From the NCBI RefSeq assembly GCF_003293745.1, contig NZ_PTLZ01000001.1:1-64000 (forward strand): a stretch of DNA of 64,000 nucleotides, given 5' to 3'. Within the stretch, counting starts at the first letter, position 1. Each line of letters opens with the position of its first letter. A program made the translations under genes and the position numbers. Positions 2,931 through 8,514 of this stretch are shown here, in pieces. Below the pieces are notes generated by a model. It had not been told where the DNA came from and did not search any database. It saw nothing but the letters and a program-made list of their open reading frames with translations. This stretch comes from Herminiimonas fonticola (GTDB lineage Bacteria; Pseudomonadota; Gammaproteobacteria; Burkholderiales; Burkholderiaceae_D).

Positions 2931-3596
2931 ATGGCCAACTATCGCATCGCTCCCAGCATTCTGTCCGCCGATTTCGCCCGTCTTGGGGAAGAAGTACGCA
3001 ACGTCGTCACCGCCGGCGCCGATATCATCCACTTCGACGTGATGGATAACCATTACGTTCCAAACCTGACCATAGGCCCCTTGGTATGCGAAGCGATACG
3101 CCCACACGTGCAAGTGCCTATCGATGTGCACCTGATGGTCAAGCCTGTGGATCGCATTGTCCCCGATTTCGCCAAGGCTGGCGCCAACATCATCACCTTC
3201 CATCCGGAAGCCTCCGATCACGTCGACCGCACGCTACAACTGATACGCGACAACGGTTGCAAAGCCGGTCTGGTCTTCAATCCCGCCACGCCTTTGCATT
3301 ATCTGGAACACGTGATGGACAAGCTCGACATCATTCTGCTGATGTCGGTCAATCCCGGCTTCGGCGGCCAATCCTTCATTCCGCACACACTGAAAAAAAT
3401 CGCGTCCGTACGCAAATTGATCGATGAATCCGGCCGCGACATCATGCTGGAAGTCGATGGCGGCATCAAAGTCGACAATATCGCCGAAGCTGCACGCGCT
3501 GGCGCAGATACCTTTGTCGCCGGCTCTGCCATTTTCGGCAAGCCAGACTACAAAGCCGTCATCGATGCGATGCGCAGCGAACTGGTGAAGGTCTAA
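2931..3596 (+). CDS. rpe: ribulose-phosphate 3-epimerase
   Basis: Interconverts D-ribulose 5-phosphate and D-xylulose 5-phosphate in the pentose phosphate (and Calvin) pathway, in the cytoplasm. The 221-residue TIM barrel has all family landmarks: [16 protein letters not shown] at the start, the metal-binding [17 protein letters not shown], the DVHLMV strand, [11 protein letters not shown] and the phosphate-binding LEVDGGI and AGSAIFG loops. The catalytic aspartates are in FDVMD and EVDGG. gph begins 2 bases after its stop. That link makes sense because phosphoglycolate phosphatase and rpe are commonly paired in proteobacteria, upstream of trpEGDC. Confidence 0.97.
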
Positions 3597-3598
3597 AT

Positions 3599-4300
3599 TT
3601 GTCTTCCAGCGTAGTTGAAAATCAAGTGTTGCATGGTATACGCGGTGTCATCGTCGATCTCGATGGCACCATGTTGCATACCGCTCAGGATTTGCACATC
3701 ACGATCAATCGGATGCGCGCCGACCTGGGTCTGGGACCGCTCACGCTAGAGACTGCGATCAGCTTCGTCGGCAAGGGCGCAGAAAATCTGGTGCGCAAAA
3801 GCATAGGCGTGGATTTTTCCGCCAGCGAAGTCGAGTTGCGCTTCAAGGAGGCACTCGCCCTGTTCGAAAAACATTATTTCGACGTCAATGGCGAATTCGC
3901 GACCGCTTACCCAGGCGTGCACGAAGGCTTGCAAGCCATGCGGGACCAAGGCTTGCGCATGGCCTGCGTCACCAACAAGCCGATGGCCTTCACCTTGCCG
4001 TTGATGGAAAAAACCGGCTTGCGCGATTATTTTGAAATCGTTTACGGCGGCGATTCTTTCGAGAAAAAGAAACCCGATCCTATGCAGTTGCTGCAAGTCT
4101 GCAAAGATTTTGGACTGCATCCATCGCAAGTCGTGGCAATCGGCGACTCCATCAACGACTCGCAGGCAGCACGCGCGGCGGGTTGCAAAGTTCTCAATGT
4201 GCCTTACGGCTACAACCACGGGCAGGCTATACAAGACGTCGATAGCGATGGTATAGTTTCTACGCTGCTAGACGCGGCACATCTTATTTCACCAACATAA
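3599..4300 (+). CDS. gph: phosphoglycolate phosphatase, HAD family
   Basis: Dephosphorylates 2-phosphoglycolate, which arises from oxidative DNA-end repair or photorespiration-type side reactions. HAD motifs are in order: motif I VDLDGTML (nucleophile Asp near residue 20), motif II VTNKP, motif III Lys in KKKPDP and motif [13 protein letters not shown]. The cap domain lies between motifs I and II. The length of 233 residues is usual. The start is a TTG at 3599, 2 bases after the rpe stop; a GAAGG sequence at the end of rpe can serve as ribosome site, so the pair is probably translationally coupled. Later in-frame starts would cut into the strand before motif I. Confidence 0.93.
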
Positions 4301-4306
4301 ATCATC

Positions 4307-4387
4307 ATGTCTCTCGACAAAAAACGACTCACAACACCAGGCGCGCATGAGGCCTGGCTATGGCGAGGCTGGCAAATCTGGCGCTGA
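4307..4387 (+). CDS. trpL: trp operon leader peptide, 26 residues, Trp-rich
   Basis: A 26-codon ORF starting 6 bases after the gph stop and ending 127 bases before trpE. Four of its last ten codons are TGG (residues 17, 19, 22 and 25: [10 protein letters not shown]), which fits a leader peptide that senses charged tRNA-Trp. The stop codon TGA (4385-4387) is the 3-base loop of a hairpin: TGGCGC (4379-4384) pairs with GCGCCA (4388-4393), extended by GGCAA (4371-4375) with TTGCC (4395-4399). A ribosome stalled on the Trp codons would block this hairpin. No strong ribosome site is visible, so translation may couple to gph. The Trp codons and hairpin are seen; the attenuation role is inferred. Confidence 0.75.
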
Positions 4388-4398
4388 GCGCCACTTGC

Positions 4399-4457
4399 CG
4401 TTGATCGTCCGCACGTTTTGCATTCCCTGCACTCCCGCGCGATCAGCAACGTTTTTT
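4399..4457 (+). terminator. candidate trp attenuator terminator
   Basis: CGTTGATCG (4399-4407) can pair with the downstream CGATCAGCAACG (4440-4451) as two helical blocks with a 3-base bulge, directly followed by six T (4452-4457). The 32-base loop holds a small TGCA/TGCA hairpin. Its first base is also the last base of the leader-peptide hairpin, so the two structures abut and could compete. The long loop makes it a weaker terminator than usual. The pairing is read by eye without an energy calculation. Confidence 0.45.
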
Positions 4458-4514
4458 GAACTACTTATTAAAGTACCAAACCGCTCGTCTACAATAGCGG
4501 TCCGGAGAGAACCC

Positions 4515-6011
4515 ATGACTGAACTCGAATTCAAATCGCTGGCCACGCAAGGCTATAACCGCATTCCACTGGTCGCCGAAGCATTCGCCGATCTGGAAAC
4601 ACCACTTTCACTCTATCTCAAACTGGCGCAAACCCAGGATGGCGGCAAAAATACCTTTTTGCTGGAGTCCGTCGTCGGTGGCGAACGCTTTGGCCGCTAT
4701 TCCTTCATAGGCCTGCCTGCCAACACCTTGATGCGCAGCTTCGGCACGCGTGTTGAAGTCGTGCGCAACGGCGCCATCGTGGAAACCTTCGAAGGCAATC
4801 CGCTTGAGTTCATCGCGGAGTTCCAGGCGCGCTATAAAGTCGCGATCTTGCCAGGCATGCCACGCTTTTGCGGCGGCCTCGCCGGCTACTTCGGCTACGA
4901 CACAGTGCGTCATGTAGAAAGCCGGCTCGCGCATAGCACACCAAAAGATGATCTCGGCCTGCCGGAAATCCAGTTGCTGCTGACAGAAGAATTGGCCGTC
5001 ATCGACAATTTGTCGGGCAAGCTTTATCTGATCGTATATGTCGATCCGACGCAGCCGGATGCGTATTTAAATGGTCGCCAGCGTCTGAAAGATTTGCGCG
5101 CCAAATTGCATCGCGCCGTCGAAGCACCGATCACCAGCGCATCGGTACGCACCAACACAATCCGCGAATTCGACAAACAAGATTATCTGGCCGCCGTCGC
5201 CAAAGCCAAGGAATACGTGATGGCCGGCGATCTGATGCAAGTGCAAATCGGCCAGCGTATCAAGAAGCCCTATGTCGATGCGCCGCTGACGCTGTATCGC
5301 GCATTGCGCTCGCTCAATCCATCGCCGTATATGTATTTCTACAATTTCGGCGATATGCAAATCGTAGGTGCATCGCCGGAAATTCTGGTCCGCAACGAAA
5401 CCGTGGCAAGCGGTAAAAAGAAAATCACAATACGTCCTTTGGCTGGTACGCGTCCACGTGGCGACACGCCAGAAAAAGACGCAATCCTCGCAAAAGAATT
5501 GCTGGCAGATCCAAAAGAAATCGCAGAACACGTGATGCTGATCGATCTCGCGCGCAATGATATTGGTCGCATCGCAGAAATCGGCAGCGTACTCGTCACC
5601 GACAAACTGGTGATCGAAAAGTATTCACACGTGCAGCACATTGTCTCGAATGTCGAAGGCACGTTGAAAGACGGCTTGTCGAATCTCGACGTGTTGAAAG
5701 CGACTTTCCCGGCTGGCACCTTGTCCGGCGCACCGAAAGTGCGCGCGATGGAAATCATCGACGAACTAGAACCGACCAAACGCGGCATTTACGGCGGCGC
5801 ATGCGGCTATCTATCCTTTGGCGGCGAAATGGATCTGGCAATCGCGATCCGCACCGGCGTCATCAAGGATGGCATGTTGTACGTGCAGGCCGCAGCGGGC
5901 ATCGTTGCCGACTCGGTACCCGAGATGGAATGGCAGGAAACTGAAAACAAGGCCCGCGCAGTATTACGCGCAGCGGAACAAGTGCAAGATGGTTTGGATG
6001 GGGAGATTTAA
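4515..6011 (+). CDS. trpE: anthranilate synthase component I
   Basis: Makes anthranilate from chorismate with ammonia from TrpG, the first committed step to tryptophan. 498 residues. The N-terminal domain carries the FLLES segment, which in this family forms the tryptophan feedback site. The C-terminal chorismate-binding domain shows PFxx-type blocks: [33 protein letters not shown] and [23 protein letters not shown] followed by [11 protein letters not shown]. The open frame runs further upstream to 4347, but the ATG at 4515 has a GGAGAG ribosome site 7 bases before it and matches the family N-terminus ([18 protein letters not shown]). trpG starts on the base after its stop. Confidence 0.97.
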
Positions 6012-6575
6012 ATGTTACTGATGATCGATAACTACGACTCCTTTACCTACAACCTGGTGCAGTATTTCGGTGAACTCGGTGAAGAAGTCGTCACCGTGCG
6101 CAATGATGAAATCACGCTGGAACAAATCGCAGCGTTGAAACCGGAACGCATCTGCATTTCGCCCGGCCCTTGCACACCGCACGAAGCTGGCGTATCAATA
6201 CCTGTATTGCAGCAATTTGCAGGCAAGCTACCCATCCTCGGCGTGTGCCTCGGTCATCAGGCGATAGGTGCAGCCTTCGGCGGCAAAGTCGTGCGCGCGC
6301 AGCAAGTCATGCATGGCAAGACTTCGCAGATTACGCATACCGGCATCGGCGTGTTCAAGGATTTGCCTAGCCCGTACACAATCACTCGTTACCACTCGCT
6401 GGCGATCGAACGTTCTTCATTGCCGGCTTGCCTGGAGGTGACGGCATGGACAGACGATGGCGAGATCATGGGCGTGCGTCACAAGGACTTTGATATCCAA
6501 GGTGTGCAATTCCATCCTGAATCCATCCTGTCCGAACACGGCCACGCACTGTTGAAAAACTTCCTCGTCCGCTAA
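6012..6575 (+). CDS. trpG: anthranilate synthase component II, glutamine amidotransferase
   Basis: Class I glutamine amidotransferase that supplies ammonia to TrpE. 187 residues, with the family opening [16 protein letters not shown], the catalytic Cys in [10 protein letters not shown] (about residue 79) and the His/Glu pair in [21 protein letters not shown] is the oxyanion/PGP motif. It is not fused to TrpD. The ATG directly follows the trpE TAA with a GGGGAG ribosome site inside the end of trpE, a typical coupling of two subunits needed in equal amounts. In betaproteobacteria the same subunit may also serve PabB; that is inference. Confidence 0.96.
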
Positions 6576-6617
6576 ATGGATAATGCTGGTCGCCATTTGA
6601 ATACAGAAAGTCTCGTC

Positions 6618-7652
6618 ATGCCGATTACTGATCAAGAAGCCCTTATGCGCTGCATCGATCATCGTGAAATTTTCCACGATGAGATGCTGCACCTGTTCCG
6701 CAAAATCATGCGCGGCGAAATGTCGCCTGTGATGATTGCGGCGCTGACGATGGGCTTGCGTGTGAAGAAAGAAAGCATAGGCGAGATCGCTGCCGCCGCG
6801 CAGGTCATGCGTGAATTTTCCACCAAAGTACCATTGGCCGACACCACCAATCTGCTCGACATCGTCGGCACGGGTGGCGATGGCGCTAACACCTTCAATA
6901 TTTCTACCGCATCGATGTTTGTTGCCGCAGCTGCAGGTGCGCGCATTGCCAAGCACGGCGGTCGTAGCGTGTCGTCCTCGTCAGGTAGTGCCGATGTACT
7001 GGAATCGCTGGGCGCAAACATCAATCTGAAGCCGGAGCTGGTCGCTGAATCGATAGCGCAAACCGGCATAGGCTTCATGTTCGCGCCGAATCACCACGCT
7101 GCGATGAAACATGCTGCACCGGTGCGCAAGGAACTCGGCGTACGCACGATCTTCAATATTCTCGGGCCTTTAACCAATCCCGCTGGTGCGCCGAATATCT
7201 TGATGGGCGTCTTCCATCCTGACCTGGTTGGCATTCAAGTCCGCGTACTGCAGCGCCTGGGGGCACAGCATGCAATCGTGGTCTGGGGTCGCGATAATAT
7301 GGACGAAGTATCGCTGGGTGCAGCAACCCTAGTTGGCGAATTGATCAACGGCGAAATCCGCGAGTATGAAATCCATCCGGAAGATTTCGGCTTGCAGATG
7401 ATTGCCAGTCGTAATCTGAAAGTTGCCGATTCGCTGGAATCGAAAGTGAAAATTTTTGAAGCGCTGGATAACGTCAATGGCGCCGCACGCGATATCGTCG
7501 CATTGAACGCAGGCACCGCATTGTACGCAGCCGGCGTCGCCAGTTCTATCGCGGATGGATTGAAACAAGCACGCGAAGCGATTGCTTCGGGTGCGGCACG
7601 TGCCAAGCTGGAACAATTTGTTAAGGTCACGCAAGCGCTAGGCAAAGCCTGA
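6618..7652 (+). CDS. trpD: anthranilate phosphoribosyltransferase
   Basis: Transfers the phosphoribosyl group of PRPP to anthranilate. 344 residues from the chosen start. The glycine-rich PRPP loop is [14 protein letters not shown], followed by [21 protein letters not shown] and the metal-binding region [12 protein letters not shown]. The open frame also allows an ATG at 6576 adjoining the trpG stop, which would add 14 residues with no family likeness. The ATG at 6618 begins [23 protein letters not shown], which fits the usual N-terminus. Neither start has a good ribosome site, so readthrough coupling from trpG is likely. Third gene of the trpEGDC set. Confidence 0.95.
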
Positions 7653-7713: not shown

Positions 7714-8514
7714 ATGTCCGACATTCTGAATAAAATCCTGGCCGTCAAAGCCGACGAAGTCGCTGCCGCGAAAAAATATCGCAGCCTGGCAAGTTTGCGT
7801 AGCGAGGTCGAAACAGATAAAGAAGCGCGCGCAGCCATACGCGGTTTTGAGAATTCACTGCGTCAGAAAATTGCTGGCGGTAATGCGGGCATCATTGCCG
7901 AAATCAAAAAAGCCTCGCCATCGAAAGGCGTGATTCGTCCTGATTTCCATCCTGCGGAAATCGCTATCAGCTATGAACAATATGGCGCGGCTTGCTTGTC
8001 GGTGCTGACGGATGTGCAATTTTTCCAGGGCGCGCCCGATTATTTGAAACAGGCGCGTGCTGCGTGTGCCTTGCCGGTATTGCGCAAGGATTTCATCATC
8101 GATCCATATCAACTTTATGAAGCGCGCTCATGGGCTGCAGATTGCATTCTGTTGATCGTTGCGGGCCTGGATCACGGTTTGATGGCAGAACTGGAAGCAT
8201 GCGCGCATGAGCTCGGCATGAACGTGCTGGTGGAAGTGCACAACGCGGAAGAACTCACCGCGGCTCTGCGTTTGAAAACTACTTTGCTGGGTGTGAACAA
8301 TCGCAATTTGCGTACGTTTGAAACATCCTTGCAAACCACACTGGATTTATTGCCGCGCATTTCGCCAGACAAGCTGGTGATTACCGAATCCGCGATCGTT
8401 ACGCCGGATGATGTGAAAAAAATGCGCGATGCCGATGTACACGCATTCCTGGTCGGCGAAGCATTCATGCGCGCACCTGAACCAGGTGTGGAACTGAGTC
8501 GCCTCTTCAACTAA
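7714..8514 (+). CDS. trpC: indole-3-glycerol phosphate synthase
   Basis: Converts 1-(2-carboxyphenylamino)-1-deoxyribulose 5-phosphate to indole-3-glycerol phosphate. 266-residue TIM barrel, not fused to TrpF. Signature elements: [17 protein letters not shown] (catalytic Lys), [16 protein letters not shown] (second catalytic Lys and substrate loop), [20 protein letters not shown] and ITESAI. Last gene of the set, 61 bases after trpD and followed by a hairpin. trpF, trpB and trpA are absent from the window, matching the common betaproteobacterial split of the pathway into trpEGDC and trpFBA. Confidence 0.96.

Follow-up and report, generated by a model that had tools for sequence, protein, structure and literature searches.

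The trp attenuator of E. coli (trpL; Rfam family RF00513), a textbook system, has a short Trp leader whose stop codon is followed by hairpins, with a U-tract terminator before trpE. Trp codons can also act on translation: in Bacillus subtilis, those of rtpLP, the leader of anti-TRAP, unmask the Shine-Dalgarno sequence of the following gene and so govern its translation, and the masked segment is located at the stall site or beyond it rather than at the start codon of the leader. In the erm and cat translational attenuators, which are induced by antibiotics, a ribosome binding site is kept closed until a ribosome stalls on the leader, and the sequestering arm is at or downstream of the stall site.

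For Sinorhizobium meliloti, the account of the trpE(G) attenuator in PMC7298713 places a Trp leader, peTrpL, before trpE and describes transcription attenuation. A 2013 Rfam-based survey suggests that amino-acid attenuators may have originated in the gamma-proteobacteria and lists the Trp leader RF00513 with a count of 48 (PMC3766115). Our literature search found no betaproteobacterial trp leader described among the titles and abstract openings listed, and an earlier description is possible.

Here we analyze the region upstream of trpE in a 64,000-nucleotide stretch of Herminiimonas fonticola DNA (contig NZ_PTLZ01000001.1, positions 1 to 64,000; the window). This region very likely contains a Trp-leader attenuator of trpEGDC. 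From sequence comparison, we consider it probable that positions 4228-4518 form a tryptophan-responsive trpEGDC leader with two layers, transcription attenuation and a translational lock made by pairing of the leader start with the trpE start, whose tryptophan-dependent opening we infer.

Results

A Trp-rich leader ORF between gph and trpE is conserved in relatives

The plus strand of the window carries, in order, rpe, gph, a short ORF, trpE, trpG, trpD and trpC:

2931-3596, plus strand: rpe, upstream of gph (profile-supported gene call)
3599-4300, plus strand: gph, between rpe and the leader, stop codon at 4298-4300
4307-4387, plus strand: Trp-rich leader ORF of 26 codons with W17, W19, W22 and W25 (ORF reading and conservation)
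4515-6011, plus strand: trpE, anthranilate synthase component I (TIGR00564 above cut-off)
6012-6575, plus strand: trpG (profile-supported gene call)
6576-7652, plus strand: trpD (profile-supported gene call)
7714-8514, plus strand: trpC (profile-supported gene call)

The start codon of gph (window 3599-4300) is apparently a TTG two bases past the rpe stop codon. A second chorismate-binding gene (G000:C1:585397-586233), with 37% identity to TrpE, is perhaps pabB. Searches for a TrpR gene and for a TRAP gene, each positive in a control genome, gave no match in the window's genome.

The original prediction placed a 26-codon ORF with TGG at four of its last ten codons between gph and trpE, and this reading is correct, the Trp codons being 17, 19, 22 and 25. 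It also proposed an alignment of relatives as a check. In the best 80 of 585 loci from a TrpE search of genomes (mostly Oxalobacteraceae, plus Cupriavidus, Ralstonia and Pandoraea), the Trp leader was kept in 80 of 80 loci, all with an AW(L/P)W core. One pass located leader starts with the W(L/P)WR motif, and a pass without the motif yielded identical leaders. The residue between the first two Trp residues was Leu in 70 and Pro in 22 of the 92 distinct leaders, and the core codons were near-constant in nucleotides (GCC in 86, CGA in 76, CGC in 82 and CAA in 66 of 92), which suggests a constraint on the RNA. A core present in all 80 loci is also what would be seen if the leader peptide, or the terminated leader RNA, acted in trans like peTrpL and rnTrpL of Sinorhizobium; however, the conservation of GCC, CGA and CGC as nucleotides fits an RNA constraint and the conserved MFL at the leader N-terminus is explicable by pairing (see below), so that we give trans action very little credence.

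The leader starts 6 bases past gph, as first described, but this closeness, which had been called unusual, is not peculiar to the window because close spacing is common in relatives (within 15 nt in 34 of 80 loci, median 21). The window leader peptide and the peptides of two relatives matched no Pfam or NCBIfam family at E values up to 1, and no Rfam family, including RF00513, matched window positions 3000-6500 at the same limit.

In a wider sample, 272 of 300 genomes of the same order had a TrpE match at E up to 1e-150, and upstream regions were examined in 69 order-level loci (the 29 best matches and 40 picked for spread). In 52 of these 69 loci, trpE was preceded by a short ORF whose final part has closely spaced Trp codons, compared with 1 on the reverse strand and 3.1 in shuffled sequences, with several of the 52 (L120, L136-L139, L152) resembling chance or sitting in the upstream gene. 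This wide set overlaps the first set, in that L085 repeats L012 and L094 repeats L078. From 40 further genomes of eight families we obtained 36 leaders, four genomes being without one, and in other orders of the class a leader was present in 6 of the 20 genomes read, out of 42 with TrpE (with a filter that also allowed GTG and TTG). Leader sequences vary by family (GASWRWWRLSSGWR, DRGAWPWRKP, EWRWRRW, TWRWR and others), with Trp codons retained where the remainder of the leader diverged.

A GTG-start Trp leader (VTNLRSFSWRQWLF) was read by eye in L096, from a 1.2-Mb genome, showing that at least one leader was missed by the ATG-only filter. L086, from the window's family, has neither a leader nor the gph promoter motif described below, and its trpE begins a few bases past gph. 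A DNA pattern for the leader core proved too loose, since 128 of 300 genomes matched it, mostly away from trpE among the matches listed; the window, which has CGAGGC, fails this pattern.

A promoter-like site within gph

Two elements bear on where transcription into trpE might begin:

4228-4257, plus strand: predicted leader promoter inside gph, with TATACA at 4228-4233, a spacing of 18 nt and an extended −10 TGGTATAGT at 4249-4257 (promoter scan)
4480-4501, plus strand: hairpin just 5′ of the trpE Shine-Dalgarno sequence, arms ACCGCT and AGCGGT (window fold; similar in relatives by eye)

From the predicted promoter, the leader transcript would start at about 4263-4265. The extended −10 overlaps a Gly-Ile codon pair of gph that reads GGT ATA in 73 of the 73 loci where the protein motif was located; in those loci, ATA accounts for 5.2% of all remaining Ile codons tallied across gph and trpE. 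The remaining 8 loci have GGTATAGT (4 loci), GCTATAGT (2 loci, L076 and L080) or neither (2 loci, L028 and L058). TATAGT, a −10-like hexamer, thus overlaps the 3′ end of gph in 79 of 81 loci. We therefore consider it probable that the leader is transcribed from a promoter of its own, to which read-through from rpe-gph may add. The promoter motif also occurs in the wide set, in 9 of 10 f1, 5 of 8 f30 and 3 of 7 f4 loci. L067 retains GGTATAGT 61 nt upstream of its leader, even though the long ORF called upstream there is rpe, not gph. The earlier suggestion that rpe-gph transcripts feed the attenuator needs qualifying: they may contribute, but need not be the main source, because the leader's own promoter-like site is conserved at the end of gph.

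TACAAT (4490-4495) in the loop of the 4480-4501 hairpin, repeated in several genera, is possibly a weak second promoter or merely a loop. If most trpE mRNA came from a promoter at this motif, between the terminator and trpE, the attenuator would be marginal. The recurrence of TACAAT before trpE in several genera is in keeping with such a promoter, but no good −35 is seen by eye, the motif is in a hairpin loop and was not observed in Massilia or Duganella in the selected alignment (see below), and the upstream site in gph is nearly invariant. We regard this explanation as highly unlikely.

Hairpins and terminator at and after the leader stop codon

Two hairpins lie at and beyond the end of the leader, before trpE:

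4371-4399, plus strand: hairpin 1:2, whose loop is the leader stop codon (minimum-energy fold)
4400-4457, plus strand: intrinsic terminator, arms 4400-4407 and 4440-4447, spacer AACG, T6 at 4452-4457 (fold and recurrence)

Both had been proposed in the original prediction, and both are present in the minimum-energy fold of 4300-4520 (z −3.94, with 0 of 200 shuffles as stable). Hairpin 1:2 pairs GGCAA (4371-4375) with TTGCC (4395-4399) and TGGCGC (4379-4384) with GCGCCA (4388-4393), leaving TGA (4385-4387) as the loop, and a GGCAATC/GATTGC or TTGCC pairing recurs in many relatives by eye. The second hairpin ends in six T (4452-4457), 57 bases from the trpE ATG at 4515. A simple terminator scan does not list this 4400-4457 terminator because the scan allows loops of 3-8 and the loop here is 32 nt.

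Counting the window, 52 of 81 loci have a stem followed by at least five T in the leader-trpE interval, compared with 4.8 in shuffles; the 29 loci that fail this test include all five Cupriavidus and all six Herbaspirillum loci. In the selected 26-locus alignment, RNAalifold shows compensatory double changes in the terminator stem, and the stem is absent from its prediction on 29 unselected loci, where the alignment is gap-rich. T-run terminators were present in the 5 loci tested of family f4. The Cupriavidus loci (L071, L073-L075, L078) keep the leader peptide 305-363 nt before trpE, with weak start:start pairing (see below), and no T-run terminator was found before trpE in these loci.

The E. 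coli antiterminator switch is not reproduced

The original prediction read this layout as ribosome-stalling attenuation. The Trp leader and the recurrent terminator agree with that reading, but a classical four-segment switch is not seen. Segments 2 and 3 adjoin in the window leader. Equilibrium folding of the window gave terminator pairing of 0.79-1.00 in every ribosome state and no clear antiterminator; since equilibrium folding also missed the E. coli switch, it is uninformative, and a co-transcriptional arm test was used instead. In the E. coli control, the arm was sequestered at 0.07 with no ribosome, 0.71 with a stalled ribosome and 0.03 with a ribosome at the stop codon. The corresponding values in the window were 0.52, 0.16-0.49 (stalled at W17) and 0.19, and those in the 51 testable loci of 81 were 0.73, 0.57 (first Trp codon) and 0.34. 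The arm test thus fits the E. coli control and not the window, the canonical 2:3 antiterminator of E. coli was not found, and these values, which come from folding energies, do not predict E. coli-like termination of an untranslated leader.

Two further candidates for antitermination were considered. Arm sequestration was hardly above that of shuffled leaders (0.73 vs 0.62, 39 loci) and is unconvincing as evidence. An extended 1:2 helix (GGCGAC:GTCGCC and similar) was suggestive as an antiterminator in Massilia and Duganella, and core:arm complementarity averaged −9.1 over 39 loci, many of them close relatives, compared with −7.0 for shuffled arms (median p 0.10); because the window's own value is weak (−4.2, p 0.54), we keep the modeled extended helix as a possibility.

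The leader start is predicted to pair with the trpE start

A further pairing, missed by the original prediction, which proposed stalling attenuation only, joins the leader start to the trpE start and points to translational control as well:

4305-4318, plus strand: 5′ arm of a long-range helix, TCATG TCTCTC GAC, covering the leader start codon (L001 duplex, window fold, swap and covariation tests)
4500-4518, plus strand: 3′ arm of the same helix, GTC CG GAGAGA ACC CATGA, with the trpE Shine-Dalgarno sequence and start codon (fold, duplex, covariation)

Pairing of the first leader codons with the trpE Shine-Dalgarno sequence was first seen in folds of distant families. The arms in the window were taken from the duplex prediction for L001, which has identical arms, and from the window fold. 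TCATG (4305-4309) pairs with CATGA (4514-4518), TCTCTC (4310-4315) with GAGAGA (4505-4510) and GAC (4316-4318) with GTC (4500-4502), with bulges of two and three nucleotides breaking the helix. In Oxalobacteraceae, the usual leader start, ATGTTTCTC, has the trpE start region, GAGAAACAT, as its reverse complement, and in L037 and L043 a leader with TTC CTC is matched by the trpE site GAGGAACAT. Only a weak start:start duplex is predicted for the loci of Undibacterium, Cupriavidus and Ralstonia and for some further loci.

When partners were swapped among 73 distinct loci, the mean duplex energy was −11.3 for own and −10.4 for swapped partners (1 of 5000 permutations). For 29 unselected loci (about one from each genus; Cupriavidus, Ralstonia and Pandoraea left out) the values were −12.4 and −11.0 (3 of 20000 permutations). 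Covariation in the same 29 loci was in agreement: 84.6% of the cells of the nine pairs were paired, compared with 82.0 in shuffles (3 of 500) and 27-66% when the arms were slid; cells changed on both sides numbered 9 vs 4.9 (9 of 500), and pairs with such a change 5 vs 3.2 (48 of 500). A selected alignment, A1, of 26 loci, which drops eight of the 29 (including the weak L012, L056 and L065) and adds five others, gave 92.3% paired vs 89.4, with 10 double-change cells vs 3.5 (0 of 500), and in it RNAalifold draws six of the nine helix pairs unaided. On the 29 unselected loci, a gap-rich alignment, RNAalifold draws no start:start helix and only a small core hairpin; thus, in going from A1 to all 29, it loses both the helix and the terminator, and covariation is lower yet above shuffles. 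Taken together, these sequence comparisons give moderate support to the predicted helix in the window's group.

We considered whether the locus is a plain, E. coli-like transcription attenuator in which the start:start pairing results incidentally from the likeness of the two initiation regions. The palindrome CATG pairs between any two starts, a purine-rich Shine-Dalgarno sequence faces a pyrimidine-rich leader start, the leader and terminator recur, and RNAalifold leaves the helix undrawn on unselected loci. However, species-swapped partners retain these general features and yet pair less well, and double changes occur on both sides of the helix. We judge this explanation to be unlikely, though still deserving of weight.

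Pairing with the trpE start can account for the conserved MFL or MSL N-terminus of the leader, so that selection on the peptide is not needed as the main cause of MFL. Some constraint on the leader peptide itself is possible, given pS of 0.61 and pN of 0.38 at leader codons 2-7.

The start:start helix in other families

For one leader per family from the 15 families with an identified leader, own partners averaged −20.9 and swapped partners −15.1 (0 of 20000). A further test used nine families picked because a first member had shown the helix, from which 44 distinct pairs were drawn (36 new leaders and 11 earlier ones). Since the families were chosen in this way, permutation was done within families: own pairs averaged −23.8, pairs swapped within a family −18.5 and pairs swapped between families −14.5, and 0 of 20000 within-family permutations reached the own-partner pairing. 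For the wide set, some leader starts were assigned by eye: an inner ATG was taken in L151, L127 and L107, and the start of L144 was set once its fold had been seen. In the nine families, the mean probability of pairing with the first stretch of the leader was 0.92 for the trpE start codon and 0.73 for the Shine-Dalgarno sequence. As controls, stretches upstream or downstream of the leader start, or 40-75 nt before trpE, showed no own-partner preference. Families f4 and f48 also lacked this preference for the start:start duplex. Six leaders from other orders of the class gave −20.5 vs −15.4 (44 of 10000). We conclude that sequence support for the predicted helix is strong in nine other families.

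These families also bear on the role of the terminator. Of the 47 leaders from the nine helix families, 31 lack a run of five T between the leader stop and trpE, which argues against a plain attenuator, although f13, among the strongest helices, has T-runs in 4 of 5 loci. Such strong helices without T-runs might instead point to a purely translational lock, with the terminator contributing little and tryptophan control arising from ribosome occupancy of the leader start. But a stem and T-run are frequent in the window's group (52 of 81 loci). The other families, f13 and f20 above all, may have terminators as well, since 15 leaders of the second set show a T-run behind a predicted stem whose 5′ arm is located within the leader ORF or immediately upstream of it. 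We therefore find a purely translational lock very unlikely.

In L149 1-921 (family f34), early leader codons make up the 5′ arm of a stem with seven T directly behind it (ACACGGAA...TTCCGTGTTTTTTT), which gives the appearance of a single element serving as both lock and terminator. In family f5 (L191-L196, L140, L141), most leader peptides start MAFHS, and CAC TCC can pair with GGAGT of trpE; this may be another peptide conservation that arises from RNA pairing.

The helix could also serve to couple trpE translation to upstream translation, of gph or of the leader, for stoichiometry and without tryptophan sensing. The gph stop codon is near the leader start (within 15 nt in 34 of 80 loci) and no Shine-Dalgarno sequence is evident by eye before the leader. 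Coupling of this kind is hard to square with Trp codons that are kept where the rest of the leader has changed, and we think it quite unlikely.

Ribosome occupancy of the leader start and predicted opening of trpE

We modeled the openness of the trpE start first on 21 picked loci and then on all 81. With a ribosome footprint on the leader start, predicted openness over the 81 loci rose from 0.34 to 0.51, with 61 loci rising by more than 0.05. A lone ribosome at the first Trp codon brought no change (0.34), and a stalled ribosome with another queued behind it gave 0.50. In 36 wide loci, openness was 0.27 for the free leader and 0.49 when a ribosome blocked its start; a single stalled ribosome gave 0.34, and adding a queued one gave 0.47. 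The E. coli trpE start showed no opening (0.71 free vs 0.61 with the start blocked). Thus, in the model, opening of the trpE site needs the leader start to be occupied as well, that is, by a second, queued ribosome.

Discussion

The Trp leader is real and widely conserved, and the terminator is present in much of the window's family. The two-layer reading is preferred here, in which tryptophan shortage may be sensed at two levels. With ample tryptophan, ribosomes would reach the leader stop codon and remove hairpin 1:2, so that the terminator forms; in transcripts that escape it, the empty leader start would pair with the trpE start and keep trpE closed. When charged tRNA-Trp is short, ribosomes would stall at W17 or W19 while others queue or initiate behind them. 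Stalling would make transcriptional read-through more frequent, and an occupied leader start could not lock trpE, so that enzyme synthesis would rise. The structure is backed by comparison; its tryptophan-dependent opening is what we infer from the modeling.

As a tentative generalization, in which our confidence is limited, we propose that across the Betaproteobacteria and some related orders, Trp leaders lock trpE at the leader's own start codon. The leader initiation region would be an antisense of the trpE initiation region, and ribosome traffic at or behind the Trp codons, not RNA ahead of them, would decide trpE translation, with the lock stacked on a terminator in the window's family. 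Such a lock, if it works as proposed, would add a geometry in which the sensing arm is behind the stalled ribosome. It would also explain the conserved N-terminus of the leader peptide and offer a simple route to attenuation without a terminator. A start:start lock was not found described in our literature search, and an earlier description is possible. The leader is without a match in Rfam, Pfam or NCBIfam, and it is frequent before trpE in the Betaproteobacteria sampled.

As in amino-acid attenuators generally, an ORF with many codons for the pathway product stands immediately ahead of the first gene, with an intrinsic terminator between them, and the trait of translational attenuators, here a trpE ribosome binding site sequestered by a leader arm, is present as a predicted helix. 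Like the trpE(G) attenuator of S. meliloti, it has a Trp leader before trpE and the marks of transcription attenuation; unlike peTrpL, its leader sequence is unrelated, and the part of that report considered here describes no start:start lock (PMC7298713). The short Trp leader, the hairpins after its stop codon and the U-tract terminator before trpE are as in E. coli trpL. However, segments 2 and 3 abut here and no 2:3 switch was seen, there is no Rfam match, the Trp codons are spaced rather than adjacent, a promoter-like site lies inside gph, and the start:start lock predicted here is not seen in E. coli. The Trp-codon leader and the predicted exposure of the next gene's Shine-Dalgarno sequence resemble rtpLP, although in another gene and another phylum. 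In contrast to erm and cat, the sequestering arm here seems to coincide with the start codon of the leader itself and so to precede the Trp codons.
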